From: Symbiotaphrina buchneri
Lineage: Eukaryota > Ascomycota > Symbiotaphrinales > Symbiotaphrinaceae
Assembly: GCA_001599915.1 (NCBI GenBank)
Contig: BCIG01000013.1
Coordinates: 558,001 to 622,000 of the forward strand
Direction of reading: 5' to 3'
Length of the DNA stretch: 64,000 nt
Part shown: positions 42,480-53,405 of the stretch, in pieces
Numbering within the stretch: the stretch's first letter is position 1
Layout: each line of letters starts with the position of its first letter
Translations under genes and position numbers: made by a program
Notes under the pieces: generated by a model
Seen by the model: the letters and a program-made list of their open reading frames with translations, nothing else
What the model was told of the DNA's origin: nothing
Databases searched by the model: none

Positions 42480-43317
42480 AGGGCCGCCGTGGATGCAAGC
42501 CTGGCTTGTCTGAATATGGGCGCATAAACGTCTTGCCTATTTAGAGCTGATATTAACACCCAGTTTGCACGGGGTCAGTCTCGGAGTATGGGTGGGAAAG
42601 CATTGGAAGCGGGCGTTAAAACTTCGAAGAATTCCAGGAGAATGGACGTCCTTCTAGTGAAAGAATAAATGAAAGAAACAGGCTGATAAATGACACATTG
42701 TGAATGTGACACTGGTGTTTTAATTCGTCTTCGCTCTCTGCTAGGGATAACATAATCTTTGTTAGAAGACATAAGGTATGCATGCCATAAGGTAGCAACG
42801 TGCAATCAGGTCGAGAGGTGGAAGATACCGTATCTAACTCATGCCAAGACTGTTCTCAGGGTCTGGAAGCATATCGTACTCTTATCTGTGGGTACGGGTA
42901 CAAAGGCGAAGCTGCAAGAGGCAAGCAAACTGAAAATTGTCCCTGTATTGCATCATCGCTTTCAGTTCCTGCAAATAATAAACGGGTCTGCCGTACACAT
43001 GGCCTAAAGCGCGTCTTGAATCCACATTATCCATGTCACTGTCAAAACCAGTCGAGATAAGCTTGAGATTCGAGAAGGGTCGTCTGCTCAGCGGTGTAGA
43101 AGACCGAGGCACGCTAAAGGGTTACTTCGTACCTTAGCTTTCTTGCGTAAGGCCATTACCACATTTTCTGAGGTACTTTGTACCTTTTTATTGACACACC
43201 GACACCTTTCACTCTTCAAAATCTCTTTCCCTCCTGCATGATATTTTCCCCGCCACAACGCTGTCCTTTTATCCACACATAGAACCAGTTCTACGTGCGA
43301 GAGGCACAACCGCGCGC
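42480..43317. promoter_or_regulatory. Intergenic region with arg2/CPA1 promoter
   Basis: 3' flank of the COP9 gene, then promoter and start of the transcribed leader of the arginine gene. I did not find an unambiguous general-control (TGACTCA) site close to the leader; a TGACTCAG lies at 43603-43610 but is inside the second leader intron. Confidence 0.45.
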
Positions 43318-43648
43318 ATGCGTACTTCGCAGACCATCTTCACATCCCAGGTAAGCTTTCGAACAGTGTTTCCTTATGCAATTGCTTTGACTACTCCCGT
43401 CCGTTTCCTTATCTCTGGCTTCGGGTGTACCCGCTCCAGCCGTGACATCGACGTGATGTGATTTCAGTCATAGCAAGGGCGTGTCATGATCTTCTGCAAA
43501 CCGACTCTTCTCTACAAGGCATCCGTTACTAACTATGCATTATAGGATTATATTTCAGGTATTTACACCTCAATGCCTCAAAGTTGGCAAGTGCGGGGTC
43601 ACTGACTCAGAATCTGCAGACCACTTGTGGAAGGCCTCAGTGAATTAA
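43318..43648 (+). CDS. Arginine attenuator peptide uORF, split by two introns
   Basis: Upstream ORF of the arginine-specific carbamoyl-phosphate synthetase gene. Exons 43318-43350, 43546-43558 (13 nt) and 43620-43648 join in frame to a 24-codon peptide. It starts MRTSQTI and continues FTSQDYISDHLWKA, the conserved core of the fungal arginine attenuator peptide (Neurospora arg-2 and yeast CPA1 share xTSQDYxSDHLW), then SVN and stop. In the family the nascent peptide stalls the ribosome at its stop codon when arginine is high and so cuts translation of the main ORF and triggers mRNA decay. Asp12 and Trp19, needed for stalling in studied homologues, are present. The stop lies 59 nt before the main ATG. 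All splice sites are GT-AG (GTAAGC/TATAG and GTATTT/CTGCAG). Confidence 0.9.
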
Positions 43649-43707
43649 CAAGCCTTCTACCCAATCCGACATCTTCCTTCCTTTTTACGATTTTATAAAC
43701 ATACGAT

Positions 43708-45135
43708 ATGTTTGCACGACTTTTGAAACAAAAGGCTTTCAAGCCTACACCGGCCTTTGGCCTTCCCTCAAGGAACGTGCCGTCCGCACGCTTCCTGGCT
43801 ACCGTGCAAGAGGGAAGTGCTGGCCGTCAGATGCCAAAGACGGCGGTCAGGGCCACGCCTCCTTCGCATGATATTGCTACATTTACTATCAAAGATGGTC
43901 CGGTCTTCCATGGCAAATCATTCGGTGCCAAGACAACCACCTCTGGCGAGGCAGTGTTCACCACCTCCCTTGTCGGTTACCCGGAATCCCTGACCGATCC
44001 GTCATACCGCGGCCAGATCCTTGTCTTCACTCAACCTTTGATCGGAAACTACGGTGTCCCAGCATCTGTCCGGGATGAATTTGGATTGCTCAAATACTTT
44101 GAGTCTCCGAATATGCAGACTGTTGGCGTTGTTGTCGCGGATGTTGCGGAGAGATATAGTCATTGGACTGCGGTTGAGAGCCTTGGCGAATGGTGCGCAA
44201 GGGAAGGTGTTCCGGCCATTACGGGAGTGGATACCCGGGCTATTGTCACCTTTCTTCGGGAACGGGGTTCCTCGCTTGCTCGTATCACCGTCGGCGAGGA
44301 GTACGATGCAGACCAGGATGAAGCTTTCGTTGATCCGGAACAGATCAACCTGGTCCGCAAAGTCAGCACGAAGGCTCCATTCCACGTTAGTTCTCCTTCT
44401 GGAGATGTGCATGTTGCAGTCATCGACTGCGGCGTCAAAGAGAACATCCTGAGGAGTCTGGTCAGCCGTGGTGCTAGTGTCACGGTCTTCCCGTTCGACT
44501 ACCCAATCCACAAGGTTGCACACCACTTCGACGGGGTGTTCGTTACCAATGGCCCTGGTGATCCGACTCACTGTCAAGAGACTGTGTACCATCTGCGCAA
44601 GTTGATGGACTCTTCGCAGACACCAATCTTTGGTATTTGCTTGGGCCACCAGCTTCTCGCCCTGGCTGTCGGTGCTCGCACCATCAAGCTGAAGTATGGT
44701 AATCGTGCTCACAACATCCCGGCGCTTGATCTCACCACAGGCCGGTGCCACATTACCAGTCAGAACCATGGGTACGCTGTTGATGCTACGACTCTCCCTA
44801 GTGATTGGAAGGAATACTTTGTGAATTTGAACGACTCGAGCAACGAAGGCATGATCCATAAGTCTCGTCCCATCTTCAGCACGCAGTTCCATCCGGAAGC
44901 CAAGGGTGGCCCGCAGGACTCGTCCTATCTTTTCGACATCTACATCGATAGTGTGAGGAAGTACAAGCGCAGTCAAGCTGTCTTCCAACCCCAACGAGAC
45001 AGCCGGCCGGATCCGCTCCTTGTGGATCTGCTTGCAAAGGAGAGGGTTGGGGTTGCGCCAGGATTGCCTGGACCTATGCCTAGCAGAGAAGACTCGCCCC
45101 AGGCCGAAGCCCCCAAAGTAGCAGCTGCTGCATAG
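43708..45135 (+). CDS. CPA1: Carbamoyl-phosphate synthase, arginine-specific, small subunit
   Basis: Glutamine amidotransferase subunit that supplies ammonia to the large subunit for carbamoyl phosphate used in arginine synthesis; known as arg-2 in Neurospora. Single exon, 475 residues. The first about 35 residues are basic with a likely mitochondrial presequence ([11 protein letters not shown] ... [12 protein letters not shown]). CPSase small-chain N-terminal domain: [40 protein letters not shown]. Class I GATase domain: the nucleophile Cys311 in [12 protein letters not shown], and His395 and Glu397 in [13 protein letters not shown] 60-residue tail after the GATase domain ([18 protein letters not shown]) is typical of the filamentous-fungal enzyme. 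Translation is predicted to be controlled by the uORF upstream. The large subunit gene is not in the window. Confidence 0.96.
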
Positions 45136-46253: not shown

Positions 46254-47672
46254 ATGCAGAGCGTTCAAGAAGCTGTGGCCAACGCCGCCAGCGGCGTCAA
46301 GGATGCTGTTGAGTCCGTTACCGCCTCTATGGCCAATACCAACATCCACGACCCTACCAGCGAAGCTGCTGGTGCCAACACGGCTACCGGCGGCGAGAAG
46401 CCCATTGACGCTGCCCACAACGAAGCCGTTCTTGCCAGCGCAGCTGAAGGTCGTCGTCTATACATCGGGAACCTCGCGTACGCGACTACGGAGGGGGAGT
46501 TGAAGGAGTTCTTCTCGGGATACCTTGTGTAAGTTCTTGGCGTCTCATCCCCATCTGCGTGCACGCATACCGCTTTGCGCATGTTCCATGTGCCATGTGG
46601 TGTGATCTCGCACACTCACAGATTTCACTATTCACTTAACAGATTCCTAGTTCATCGCCCTCTGCATGACACTCAGCTGACTCTTCTTGTCACAGTGAAT
46701 CCACTTCTATCCCAGTGAACCCACGCACCAGCCGTCCTGTCGGCTATGCCTTTGTGGACCTTTCCACCCCTTCTGAAGCTGAGCGCGCCATTTCCGAGCT
46801 TTCAGGCAAAGAGATCCTGGATCGTAAGGTCTCTGTCCAACTTGCCCGCAAGCCCGAGCCAGCCGGAGAGAAGGGTGAGGGTGAGCCCACTAGCGGCGGT
46901 GAAGGAAGGAGGCGCGGATCCACCCGGGGTAGGGGCCGGGGCCGTGGACGCGGTGGACGCGGTGGTCGGGGTGGGCGGGGCGGACGTGCGGTAAGTCCAG
47001 TTTAACCAGTGAACTTGTGATCGGATGACTGATGTGATAATCGCGATGAGCAGACCAACGGCGAATCAGGCGAAGGTGCTGTGGGCCCTACCAACGTCCC
47101 TGGACAAGTCGTTCCTCTCACCGAGACAACGAACGAAGCTCTTACCGCCGAGAAGGAGGCAAACACGATTACTGTCGACCATAACAAGGACCGCCCCCGT
47201 CAAACTAGGGCCCCCAGACAACGTGGACCTCCTGAAGACGGAATCCCTTCCAAGACTAAGGTCATGGTCGCTAACCTTCCTTACGACTTGACCGAAGACA
47301 AGGTTCGTTAGAAGACTTCACGAATGTGGCGTCGGTTGCTGACAATTCCACCAGCTTAAGGAGCTCTTCTCGGCCTACCAGCCGGTTTCCGCCAAGATCG
47401 CTCTTCGCCCTATCCCTCGCTTCATGGTCAAGAAGCTTCAAGCTAGGAACGAGCCTCGCAAGGGCCGTGGCTTCGGGTTCGTTACGCTCGGCTCCGAGGA
47501 GTTGCAGCAGAAAGCTGTTGCGGAGATGAACGGAAAGGAAATTGAGGGCCGTGAGATCGCTGTCAAGGTGGCCATCGATAGCCCTGGCAAGGAAGATGCG
47601 GATCTTGATCACCAGGAGGGCGAGGGTGAGCAAGAACAAGCCAAGGAGGGTGAGACCGCCGCTACCAACTAA
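46254..47672 (+). CDS. Two-RRM, RGG-box RNA-binding protein
   Basis: Exons 46254-46528, 46696-46990, 47054-47302, 47355-47672; 378 residues. First RRM at about 68-145 (RNP2 RLYIGNLAY, RNP1 RPVGYAFVDL), then an RGG/GRG-rich linker (about 160-190), a second RRM at about 258-345 (RNP2 KVMVANLPYDL, RNP1 KGRGFGFVTL) and an acidic Glu/Gln tail. The organisation recalls nucleolin-like and Sbp1-like RGG proteins, which bind eIF4G or rRNA precursors; I cannot choose between these. The CT-rich leader suggests high expression. RRM1 is split by intron 1 inside the domain. Confidence 0.88.
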
Positions 47673-49049: not shown

Positions 49050-52000
49050 CTACAGCTCCTCTTGCAACGGCATTTGCTCCTCCTTCACCTGGCCGCGCCC
49101 ATGATTCTGCTTCTGACCTGCTGATGAGCCATGTCCTCCTTCCGACTGCTGTTGCACCATCTGCTTCAACCGTTGGAGCTTCTCCTCTGTGATTTTAATC
49201 GCAGCATCAACCTCTCTCTGGCCCCTTTTCTCCTCGCCAGCTAGAAGTTTCTGCACTTTCTTGCGGACATTCGCTGGTTTCGCTGGGGCGCCCGCCGTAG
49301 ATTGCCATGCACTGGCTAAACCTTCATGCAGTCCGACTCGTTCCTCTAGCCAGTCCCAAAGCTCATTCTCCTCTCGCCGCCAAAGCTCCTCATATGCGGC
49401 GATACGGTTTGGGTTGCGCATGTCTGTATGAGGTGGAGCATACCACATTCGTAACCAGGTGACCAGCAGTAGGAGGACCAGGGCGCTTGCCAGAGTGTTG
49501 CCGGTAAGTAGGGGCCCGAGGAGGGAAGAAATTAGACTGAAGATAGGACGCAGAGGTTCTAAAACGCCCCAATCTTCTTTGCGTTGTTGTGTAGGCGCAG
49601 AAACTGCTGTAGTAGCAGACTTGTTCCCAGCATCCGTGCCGGCGCGTCTCCGGCGAGTCCTGGTCGGTTTACCATTCTTTGCAATGGCAGCTGAAGGGCG
49701 CTTTGCTGCTACTGCGGTCTTGATCGCAGCAATTAGATCGCGGGCATAGCTAATCTGCCCATCATTTGAGCCCTTTTCGATCGGACCTGTTCCTTCGGAT
49801 TAGCAGTTATTGGTTGCGAGAGCACATAAGAGAAAGCCGTTACCTTTGAGCCAGCTCTTCCCCGTCCATTCAATGGTGCAACCAACCAAGATGCGTGTAG
49901 AGTTGTTCTCGGCCCACATCAAGCAGTACTTTGTTTTCGTAGTAAAGACATTGCCGCTAGGAACATCTGGCGTTTGAGTGGCCACGGTAACAGAGACAGA
50001 CCGTTCAAGATCCATGAACGTTAGAGTCTCAGTAATGATGCACTTCGTCTGCTTTGGCCCAATGGATCCAGGGAGAGGTTTAATGTATGAGAATGTTCGA
50101 GACTTGGTCTGCTGTGACAAGCCCCCTTTGGGTTCAGGTGTTGTTAATTCCAAGCACTTTTGGTCTTCCACCAGCCATTTGCTCATGAACGTATCTGAAG
50201 CCGGCCCAAAAATCATACTGTAGACTTTCCCTAGTGGCCCAGGTATTACTTCATCCTTCACGACCCTATCATAGTGTTCCGATTGATCCGTACATTGAGT
50301 TGGGGGATGCGACGCAGGGCCAGGGAAATCGGCAGCAGCTGGAGCGCCGATTTCAGCAACGGCCGTGGTCCCGTCGGCTGATGTAATAACGGCAGCGGCT
50401 GACCCTGAAGGTGCTATCGCAGACGGCTTCCGAGATGGGATTTTGGCGTCAAGTTCCGCGAGGTCACTACCGGCAACACTCGTATTACCAGCCTCTGTAT
50501 AGCTCCCTCCTTCGTCCTCTTCATCCTCGTCTTCATCATATATTTCCTCCATTGACCCCTCATCCGAAGGCGCTTCACTCACGAAGCTGACGTCGTCTTT
50601 GACGGTCTTATCTCCGGTGCCGGTATCATCTAACCGGACGCCGTTGACAGAACTCTGCAATGTTGGATGGTTAATCTTCCAGATACCTATGAGAAGGTCG
50701 TAAGTCGAATCCCGGCTTATGAAACTCGCAAATACGTTCCTAGCATGCAAGGTCTGAATAACTATGGCATTGGGAAAAATCATGGCCGTGCTTTTCTTCT
50801 CGATGGACATAACCTCATCAAAACTTATCACAAGGTTTGTTACCCAACCCAGAATGTTGCTTGAAAAGCAGATGTGACCCTCGGAGACATACAATCTCCC
50901 TTGGAGTAAGATGTCTCTTTGCAAAGCACAACCATAATCCTCGATTAAATAGTCGTCTTCAGGAACGCTGCGGAACAATTGATGGAAATCCTTATTCCGC
51001 TTTTTGCTCGCAACAGCGAAGCCGGTCAGTTTTGGAACACTGCCATTAGCGCCAGGGTGTGCCACTGTTGCGTTCACGCCAAGCAGAGCCGAACCGATGG
51101 TAGGGACTGTAGCTGCTGAGCTTCCACGATGCTTTCTAGTCACGACGGTGCCGGCCCGACTTCGAACACTCTGACTTCGCCCGGGAGTCAAGTCATCCCC
51201 CAATTCACTCTCGTACAGTGATCTTTGGTCTCCAGCAGTGCTGGCTGTGTCGAAAGTCGAGCTCGGCCCCATTGCCGATATGTCTTGCGCAACTGGTGTT
51301 TCACCTTCTGCAGTCTTTCCACTGACAGGTGAAGAAGGCTGTACGAGCGGGGACGCAGCTTTGACAGGCCCACCACCGCTGGAGTTGGAATTCGCGGTTC
51401 CGGGTAATGGTTTTGTCGAACCTGGTTCGTTTCCCGTTGCCTTTGCAGTACTTGGAGCAGAGCTATCTGGACTAGGCTCCATCGTTATACCGAGGTGGCT
51501 TAGACTGAGATCACCCATACCCAATGTCTCCACAGCAAGCTTTTGGGCAGGCTTCCCCTCAGGTTTATTCTCTCCATTTGTCGTCGGGAGAATAACTTCC
51601 TCCCCATCTTCCTTGTCATTCTCTTCCGTAGTCGGCATAGTACTACCACGGCTGCGTGCTTGTGGCGTCAAACTAGTATTGATGCTGTTGGTCAAGGAAG
51701 TTGCAGCCGTCTGAGCGGCAGAAAAGACGGAGGAAAAGAAACCTCCAGCCCCTGAAGTCTCCCTGAGAGAACCACCGGGAGTTTTCATTTCTTCAAGGGT
51801 AGGTGTGAGGGGCGAAACGACAGAGGAAAGCTTGGTTGACGGATTTGCAGCCGAAGCTGAGCGTATCCGTCGGTGCGAAATCATATTCCCAGAAGGGGAG
51901 ATGACAATGTCTTTCTTCGCCTCCGATTTGTATGCACTAGGGTCCGAGGGCGATTTGGATCTCTGGATAGGTGTATCTGGCTTCTGATCCAGGACAGGGG

Positions 52001-53405
52001 TTGGGGGTGTTATGGTTGTAGCGGGTGTAGTCGGTGTGCCAGAAGCAGTTGAAGCAAGCGTATCGACCCTTGGTGTAACGGGACTCTTCTTGACCAATTT
52101 GCTATCCTCCGTCTGCCGGTCGGTTCTGACAAAACCTGGTACGGGCGGCATGGGTGGCGCCGTGGAGACAACATCTTCTTTCTTTGACGCCTTAGACGCT
52201 CTTCTAGAGCTCATACTGCCTCTCCTAATCCCTGCATTGCCCTTCTCCGATATTGTAGAAGTCACGTCGCTGTTGACAGACTCACGATCCGGACTTGATC
52301 TTGGACTAGAAGTCCGTCTGACAAGGGTATCCTTAAGCTTGTTCAACGAAGAGACCGAACGCCGTTTATTTCCTGAGCCCGTATCAGGCACTGCGAGCTT
52401 CGCAATAGCTGAGTCCGACACAGAACTAGGCAACTCAGCGGCCACGGGTCCTGAACCATTCGATTGGACTATGGAGGTAGGAGGTTCCTTTGAAAGAGTG
52501 TCCTGAACGATCGGCGACGATAGGGTCAGGTAACCTATGTGAGATGTCTGAGTGGATAAGGCAGGCGTCGTCAATTGACTGTTTAAAATTGTCAGTTCAG
52601 CTCAGCTCAGCTCAGCTCAGCTTAGAACGCTCAGAACGAAAAGAAGGGATTTCCGCGAAGTTGACTTGGTGGATGGTGGATAGGCCGTTGCAATTAGGAA
52701 TGCTTTGAAAGAGCGATAATTTCTAGCAGTGTAGGGAGTGCTGTGCTGCCTGACCGCTAGTGAGAGGGAGAGGTGGAGGTTTACGCAGCCTGCCGAGCTG
52801 CAGCTCCACACCGTTCTTCGCTTGGACGCAAGTCGACTGGTCGTCGCCGATTGTCCGCGCTCGCAATTGGAGTGCCCAAGCTAACGCCGGCGGTGGGAAA
52901 TACAAAGGTGCTCGACAAGGAACGCATTTGTTGGGTAGATGGAAATAAAGACAGGGTTGATGACTTACGACTCTGGATCCTCATCGTCAGTCAAAAGACT
53001 GCTTCCTTCATCGTCGAGACCCGTAGCCAGCGAGCCAGTACTGGATTGCGAAGGGACATCTAGTGTCCCTCTCTCCGCTACACTTCGTCCACGTCTGGCC
53101 TCCTCGAGCTCCTGTCTGTGAGAACTCCGTGCTGTTCTCCGCTTGAGAGGCTTGGGCAGGAGTTTAGTAATTGTATGGCTTTTGTCACTCGATATGCTCT
53201 GCTTGTCGTCCCCTTCATGCCGAATGGACTCAAGACTACCACGTAGCTTCTCCTTTGCTGTGTCCAGTGACGCCTTCAATCCATGACGACTCTCCCCACT
53301 CTCCTGGCTAGCTATTGATGGTGTGGAAGAATTGTCATCTTTCCGTCGATGAAGAACCTTAGACAGAGGCCGAGAAGGGGCCGGGGATGTGTCCAAAGGC
53401 GACAT
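49050..53405 (-). CDS. Lam/Ltc-type GRAM and VASt domain protein (membrane-anchored sterol transfer)
   Basis: Minus-strand exons 53405-52969, 52578-49844, 49786-49050; 1302 residues. The N-terminal 650 residues are Ser/Thr/Pro-rich and disordered. A GRAM domain starts near residue 675 (HQLFRSVPEDDYLIEDYGC, GRLYVSEGHICFSSNILGWV, AIVIQTLHARNVFASFI). A VASt (StART-like) domain follows at about 915-1058 (GKVYSMIFGPASDTFMSKWL, TKCIITETLTFMDL, WTGKSWLKG). A membrane segment near 1156 (TLASALVLLLLVTW) and a helical Glu/Lys/Gln-rich tail complete it. This is the architecture of yeast Ysp2/Lam2, Lam4 and related proteins, which move sterol between plasma membrane and ER at contact sites. Intron 1 is 390 bp, long for this window, and holds a pentanucleotide repeat. 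Divergent from the Atg38-like gene. Confidence 0.92.
52598..52621. repeat. (CTCAG)n repeat in intron 1 of the Lam-type gene
   Basis: Four to five pentamer copies, read as (CTGAG)n on the transcribed strand, ending about 20 nt before the 3' splice site. Each copy resembles a CTRAN branch site. Confidence 0.85.

Follow-up and report, generated by a model that had tools for sequence, protein, structure and literature searches.

A putative arginine attenuator peptide encoded across three exons, one of them 13 nt long, in the leader of a CPA1/arg-2-like gene of Symbiotaphrina buchneri

Based on sequence comparison, we conclude that a CPA1/arg-2-like gene is preceded by what looks like a real arginine attenuator peptide (AAP) leader, in which two introns interrupt the code of the peptide and the conserved Asp12 is located in an exon of 13 nt. 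The window, i.e., the whole stretch of 64,000 nucleotides analyzed, contains the following predicted features at this locus.

43318..43350, + strand: coding portion of exon 1 of the predicted AAP uORF, from the ATG to Q11 (M1-Q11, MRTSQTIFTSQ), terminating in phase 0
43351..43545, + strand: intron 1, 195 nt, CAG/GTAAGC ... ACTAAC ... TTATAG
43546..43558, + strand: microexon, 13 nt, GATTATATTTCAG, encoding D12, Y13, I14, S15 and the first base of D16
43559..43619, + strand: intron 2, 61 nt, CAG/GTATTT ... ACTGAC ... CTGCAG, phase 1, splitting the D16 codon
43620..43648, + strand: coding portion of exon 3 of the predicted AAP uORF, with the remainder of D16, HLWKASVN and the TAA stop codon
43649..43707, + strand: spacer of 59 nt separating the AAP stop from the main start, containing no ATG
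43708..45135, + strand: main ORF, 475 aa, stand-alone carbamoyl-phosphate synthase (CPS) small subunit of the CPA1/arg-2 type (TIGR01368)

The initial annotation had joined three exons at this place, and both its coordinates and the join proved exact: the 75 nt of 43318-43350, 43546-43558 and 43620-43648 translate to MRTSQTIFTSQDYISDHLWKASVN, followed by a stop codon. With 24 residues, the joined peptide equals in length the solved AAP in PDB entry 2xl1, which we take to be the arg-2 AAP of Neurospora crassa. When all PDB chain sequences (177,635 distinct) were searched using phmmer, accepting E-values up to 10, chain 2xl1_A (“arginine attenuator peptide”) was the single distinct match, with an E-value of 2.3e-6. 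The two peptides share their register, residues 4–21 lying on residues 4–21 with 12/18 identical. Within the core FTSQDY(I/L)SDHLW(K/R)A, 12 of the 14 residues are shared with the solved AAP, the remaining two being I/L and K/R, and the residues DYIS of the microexon align with DYLS of 2xl1. An Asp is present at position 12 of 24, as the AAP core requires; the 13-nt exon begins with the codon for this Asp12, the counterpart of the conserved AAP Asp. On sequence grounds, we identify the joined product as an arginine attenuator peptide. When the whole genome was searched with it in six frames, no match was obtained, an empty result that carries little weight as the search was conducted without a positive control.

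The contiguous leader had been described as having no full attenuator ORF, which was borne out when unspliced ORFs of the + strand leader (ATG starts, at least 20 aa) were listed. An ORF of 47 aa starts at 43318, has its stop at 43461 and loses its AAP likeness after TSQ, and an ORF of 37 aa (43535-43648, MHYRIIFQVFTPQCLKVGKCGVTDSESADHLWKASVN), whose start ATG falls within intron 1, ends with DHLWKASVN and the AAP stop without the FTSQDY half, so that each of them misses part of the core. We enumerated all structures from ATG 43318 with 0, 1 or 2 GT-AG introns of 40–300 nt. Among these 2271 structures, which give 1191 distinct peptides, just one yields the core, confirming that no other such join does so; the runner-up structures retain 7/18 AAP residues. 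Further, the 18-residue AAP fragment of 2xl1 was aligned with the DNA, allowing GT-AG introns of 40–300 nt at a flat cost and leaving splice signals uncredited. The leader scored 69. Elsewhere, i.e., in 1097 other 500-base bins on both strands of 264 kb (the window plus the 200 kb before it on the contig; bins fed by the same exons excluded), the maximum was 42, with a mean of 23.7 and a standard deviation of 3.7. The best intron-free score for the same fragment in the region 43000-44500 was 36.

The gene downstream had been named as CPA1/arg2, and profile analysis agrees with this name. TIGR01368 (glutamine-hydrolysing small subunit) matches the main ORF over residues 57–417 with 449.9 bits (cut-off 307.35); the part before residue 57 resembles, and probably is, a mitochondrial presequence. 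In the genome, PF00988 matches twice, namely in the main ORF and on a different contig (C20). On C20, two PF02786 large-subunit matches lie downstream of the PF00988 match, at approximately 1.3 kb and 2.9 kb and on its strand, in an open frame of 2080 aa, which fits the fused pyrimidine enzyme. A two-domain CPS large subunit without a small-subunit match is located on a third contig (C16) and fits CPA2/arg-3. The FAS beta of this genome resembles its best PDB chains, 4v58 and 7q5s, closely but is clearly distinct from them, which would fit a filamentous ascomycete and, if 4v58 is the Thermomyces enzyme, speaks against Thermomyces lanuginosus. Since the main ORF is stand-alone and separate adjacent small and large CPS matches are present on C20, the CPS gene of the window is probably the arginine-specific one. 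Relatives of the main protein were found neither among 27 pattern matches in prokaryotic/viral genome contigs nor among 2 pattern matches in viral contigs, and these results have no bearing on fungi.

Exon 3 runs on into the main ORF (from 43708) without need of a further intron. Position 43318 marks the initiation codon rather than the 5′ end of exon 1, and 43648 marks the uORF stop rather than the 3′ end of exon 3; 43318 itself is probably included in the mRNA. The uORF ATG stands in the context GCGCGC/ATGCGT, with C at both −3 and +4. A weak start that allows leaky scanning is a defining feature of AAP uORFs, and the context found here is weak and would fit leaky scanning. A further upstream ATG was noticed by eye at 43238; its short frame, MIFSPPQRCPFIHT, runs to 43282 and would add another uORF to a transcript that begins further upstream.

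In order to judge the splice signals, 20 reference introns of this genome were inferred from homology, at breaks in matches to PF00069 (kinase) or PF00083 (sugar transporter). Every reference break gave a frame-keeping GT-AG intron, 16 of the 20 with the exact profile spacing, two deviating by one residue and two by two; a single tie was resolved by giving preference to G at +5. The reference introns are 47–111 nt long (median 55.5), a range biased to short introns as short breaks were picked by eye, carry G at +5 in 17/20 cases, and have the A of their best branch-like site 9–23 nt from the AG. The donor of intron 1 outscores 16 of the 20 references, and the A of its best-scoring branch site, ACTAAC, lies 13 nt from the AG. 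Its length of 195 nt exceeds that of all 20 references, a sample biased to short introns. The donor of intron 2 is middling, outscoring 6/20 references, and has T instead of G at +5, a feature shared with 2/20; the A of its best-scoring branch site, ACTGAC, is 14 nt away from the AG. Of all GT sites on the + strand of the 264 kb, 0.33% score at least as high as donor 1 and 2.6% at least as high as donor 2. Neither intron stands out within this genome by its donor, branch site or acceptor, and splicing of both is probably constitutive.

Two other routes to an intron model were abandoned. Unsupervised intron learning from codon usage on 264 kb delivered 42 candidates without a clear consensus, and motif learning on the same 264 kb failed to converge on a branch site and was replaced by the 20 homology introns. 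A riboswitch-like RNA regulator was also considered and rejected: the RNA fold of intron 1 has a z-score of −0.20, 82 of 200 shuffled sequences being at least as stable, and no Rfam family matched the window at gathering thresholds. tRNAs searched for were not found. A TGACTCA, the Gcn4/CPC1-type site, is present at 43603-43609 in intron 2, overlapping the ACTGAC branch site; as the window contains five TGASTCA sites vs. 10.2 in shuffled sequences, we do not regard the site as a signal, and the occurrence may be due to chance.

Very probably, then, the locus contains a conserved fungal AAP uORF of a CPA1/arg-2 gene, the code of which is cut by two spliceosomal introns, with default splicing and arginine stalling. 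The pre-mRNA would be spliced by default through intron definition, resulting in a 24-codon uORF 59 nt ahead of the main start, and scanning ribosomes would either translate this uORF or bypass its weak start via leaky scanning. At high arginine, the nascent peptide, with the DYIS of exon 2 at its center, would stall the ribosome at the uORF stop codon; the stalled ribosome would block scanning ribosomes, and the mRNA would be exposed to nonsense-mediated decay (NMD). We infer stalling, arginine sensing, leaky scanning and NMD for this CPA1 leader by analogy. In the literature, AAP control of CPA1/arg-2 (PMC7049704, PMC7969011) and arginine-dependent stalling (PMC10501990, PMC7969011) have been described, and the yeast and Neurospora orthologues of CPA1/arg-2 are NMD substrates, in yeast in a uORF-dependent manner (PMC7049704).

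Skipping of the microexon or retention of an intron had been predicted to break the peptide, and the core is indeed lost in each product: skipping of exon 2 gives MRTSQTIFTSQTTCGRPQ followed by a stop, retention of intron 1 a 47-aa peptide ending within this intron, and retention of intron 2 a 30-aa peptide, MRTSQTIFTSQDYISGIYTSMPQSWQVRGH, followed by a stop. From this, the initial annotation had proposed splicing as a second switch on top of ribosome stalling, an idea for which the analysis yielded no positive evidence. As a regulated switch, splicing would cancel arginine control or shut down expression whenever exon 2 is skipped or an intron is kept, and we regard this as very unlikely. The loss of the core in every altered product tested would suit such a switch, and so would the end of exon 2, TTTCAG, next to the intron 2 donor, since moving the 3′ splice site by 13 nt would leave the exon out. 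Two fungal cases provide precedents, namely a glucose-dependent 20-nt microexon in Trichoderma Xlr2 (PMC11121469) and the SAM decarboxylase leader of Neurospora, the uORFs of which are subject to alternative splicing (PMC5640933). However, the signals of both introns are ordinary for the genome, the fold of intron 1 is not unusual and Rfam gave no match, and intron gain inside a short conserved code fully explains a 13-nt exon. Retention also works in the direction opposite to relief. The correctly spliced leader downstream of 43318 contains the uORF's own AUG and no other upstream one, and retention of both introns adds five, at 43376, 43456, 43486 and 43535 (intron 1) and 43573 (intron 2). 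Because retained introns add upstream AUGs, retention should repress the main ORF still more instead of freeing it, and less enzyme, not more, would be made. The sole error which would plausibly free CPA1 from arginine is a precise skip of exon 2. Regulated inclusion of this exon, in which the acceptor slides by 13 nt from TATAG to TTTCAG and the uORF ends with TTCGRPQ and cannot stall, is most unlikely: as an acceptor, TTTCAG is 26 nt away from the branch A, outside the 9–23 nt of the 20 reference introns. If true, splicing would decide whether CPA1 hears arginine at all. The exon, internal and 13 nt long, falls within the size range of switch-like microexons (internal, at most 30 nt). In TTTCAG/GTATTT at 43553-43564, the acceptor-like end of the microexon abuts the donor, as in a recursive splice site.

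Three other explanations were considered. Transcripts starting downstream of 43318 might bypass arginine control, so that only some of the mRNAs would use the split AAP. Fungi commonly use alternative starts (PMC9604717), but a start in intron 1 or later would leave other AUGs (among 43376, 43456, 43486, 43535 and 43573) before the main start, and we give this bypass a very small chance. The peptide might also be a relic, i.e., a uORF which was split by introns and is made or sensed no longer. The sole point in favor of this is indirect, namely that a leader with two introns in 72 nt is fragile; on the other hand, the near-complete identity of the core (12/14 residues, the other two I/L and K/R), the length of 24 aa, the intact frame and stop and the intact splice sites render it extremely improbable. 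Finally, intron 2 may use the AG at 43609-43610 as acceptor, which keeps the frame and places ESA between S15 and D16 (MRTSQTIFTSQDYISESADHLWKASVN, followed by a stop). This AG lies only 5 nt from the branch A vs. a minimum of 9 nt in the 20 reference introns and its use would interrupt the conserved core, so this variant is barely conceivable.

The predicted split AAP uORF was compared with known systems. Like the Neurospora crassa arg-2 AAP, the peptide has 24 residues, with the core FTSQDY[I/L]SDHLW[K/R]A in register, and precedes the small subunit of an arginine CPS; unlike there, the code is cut after Q11 and inside D16, and the Neurospora AAP uORF is not known to carry introns at these two points. 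The peptide of the S. cerevisiae CPA1 uORF, which is not known to contain introns, likewise has the conserved Asp followed by YIS, and the gene is the same. A primer given in PMC7969011 spans T-C-Q-Asp/Asn-Y-I of this yeast uORF. An AAP-like conserved Asp is also found in the uORF of Toxoplasma ApiAT1, which is arginine-responsive and in which D19N largely abolished the arginine response; in contrast to the present case, this uORF belongs to another gene in another kingdom and is a contiguous 99 bp (PMC8370653).

Regarding the exon structure, three fungal studies offer parallels. The 20-nt microexon of Trichoderma Xlr2 is, as here, not a multiple of three and needed for the reading frame, but it is located within the main ORF and its regulated inclusion was shown (PMC11121469). 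The one-nucleotide exon of Fusarium CYP621A similarly represents a tiny exon within a conserved motif and indicates that tiny fungal exons can splice routinely; it differs in its position within the main ORF, and was treated as constitutive (PMC12940212). The Neurospora SAM decarboxylase (SDC) leader shares with the present one uORFs in an intron-bearing leader and occurs in spliced forms with and without the uORFs, whereas SDC is a polyamine gene with an RNA hairpin motif and a uORF peptide which is not an AAP (PMC5640933).

In the passages of the literature covered by the search, no description of an intron-split AAP uORF was found; Hood et al. 2007, the study most likely to contain one, reportedly may treat introns at this place. 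As a peptide, the attenuator is an unremarkable representative of its family; what is unusual is the presence of two introns in 72 nt together with a 13-nt exon bearing the Asp. A regulatory peptide with its key Asp in such an exon escapes ORF scans of genomic DNA. Consequently, surveys of conserved uORFs or AAPs which do not use splicing models score genes of this kind as lacking arginine control. With few isoforms and arginine as readout, the leader also offers a clean natural test of the coupling between splicing and the nascent peptide.

Two further features of the window were noticed by eye downstream of the CPS gene. Split ORFs with RRM- and RGG-like RNA-binding stretches at 46254-47672 apparently form one multi-exon gene. 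At 49800-52574 on the minus strand, an intron-free frame of 924 aa is present, which from its appearance may encode a GRAM-domain lipid-transfer protein.
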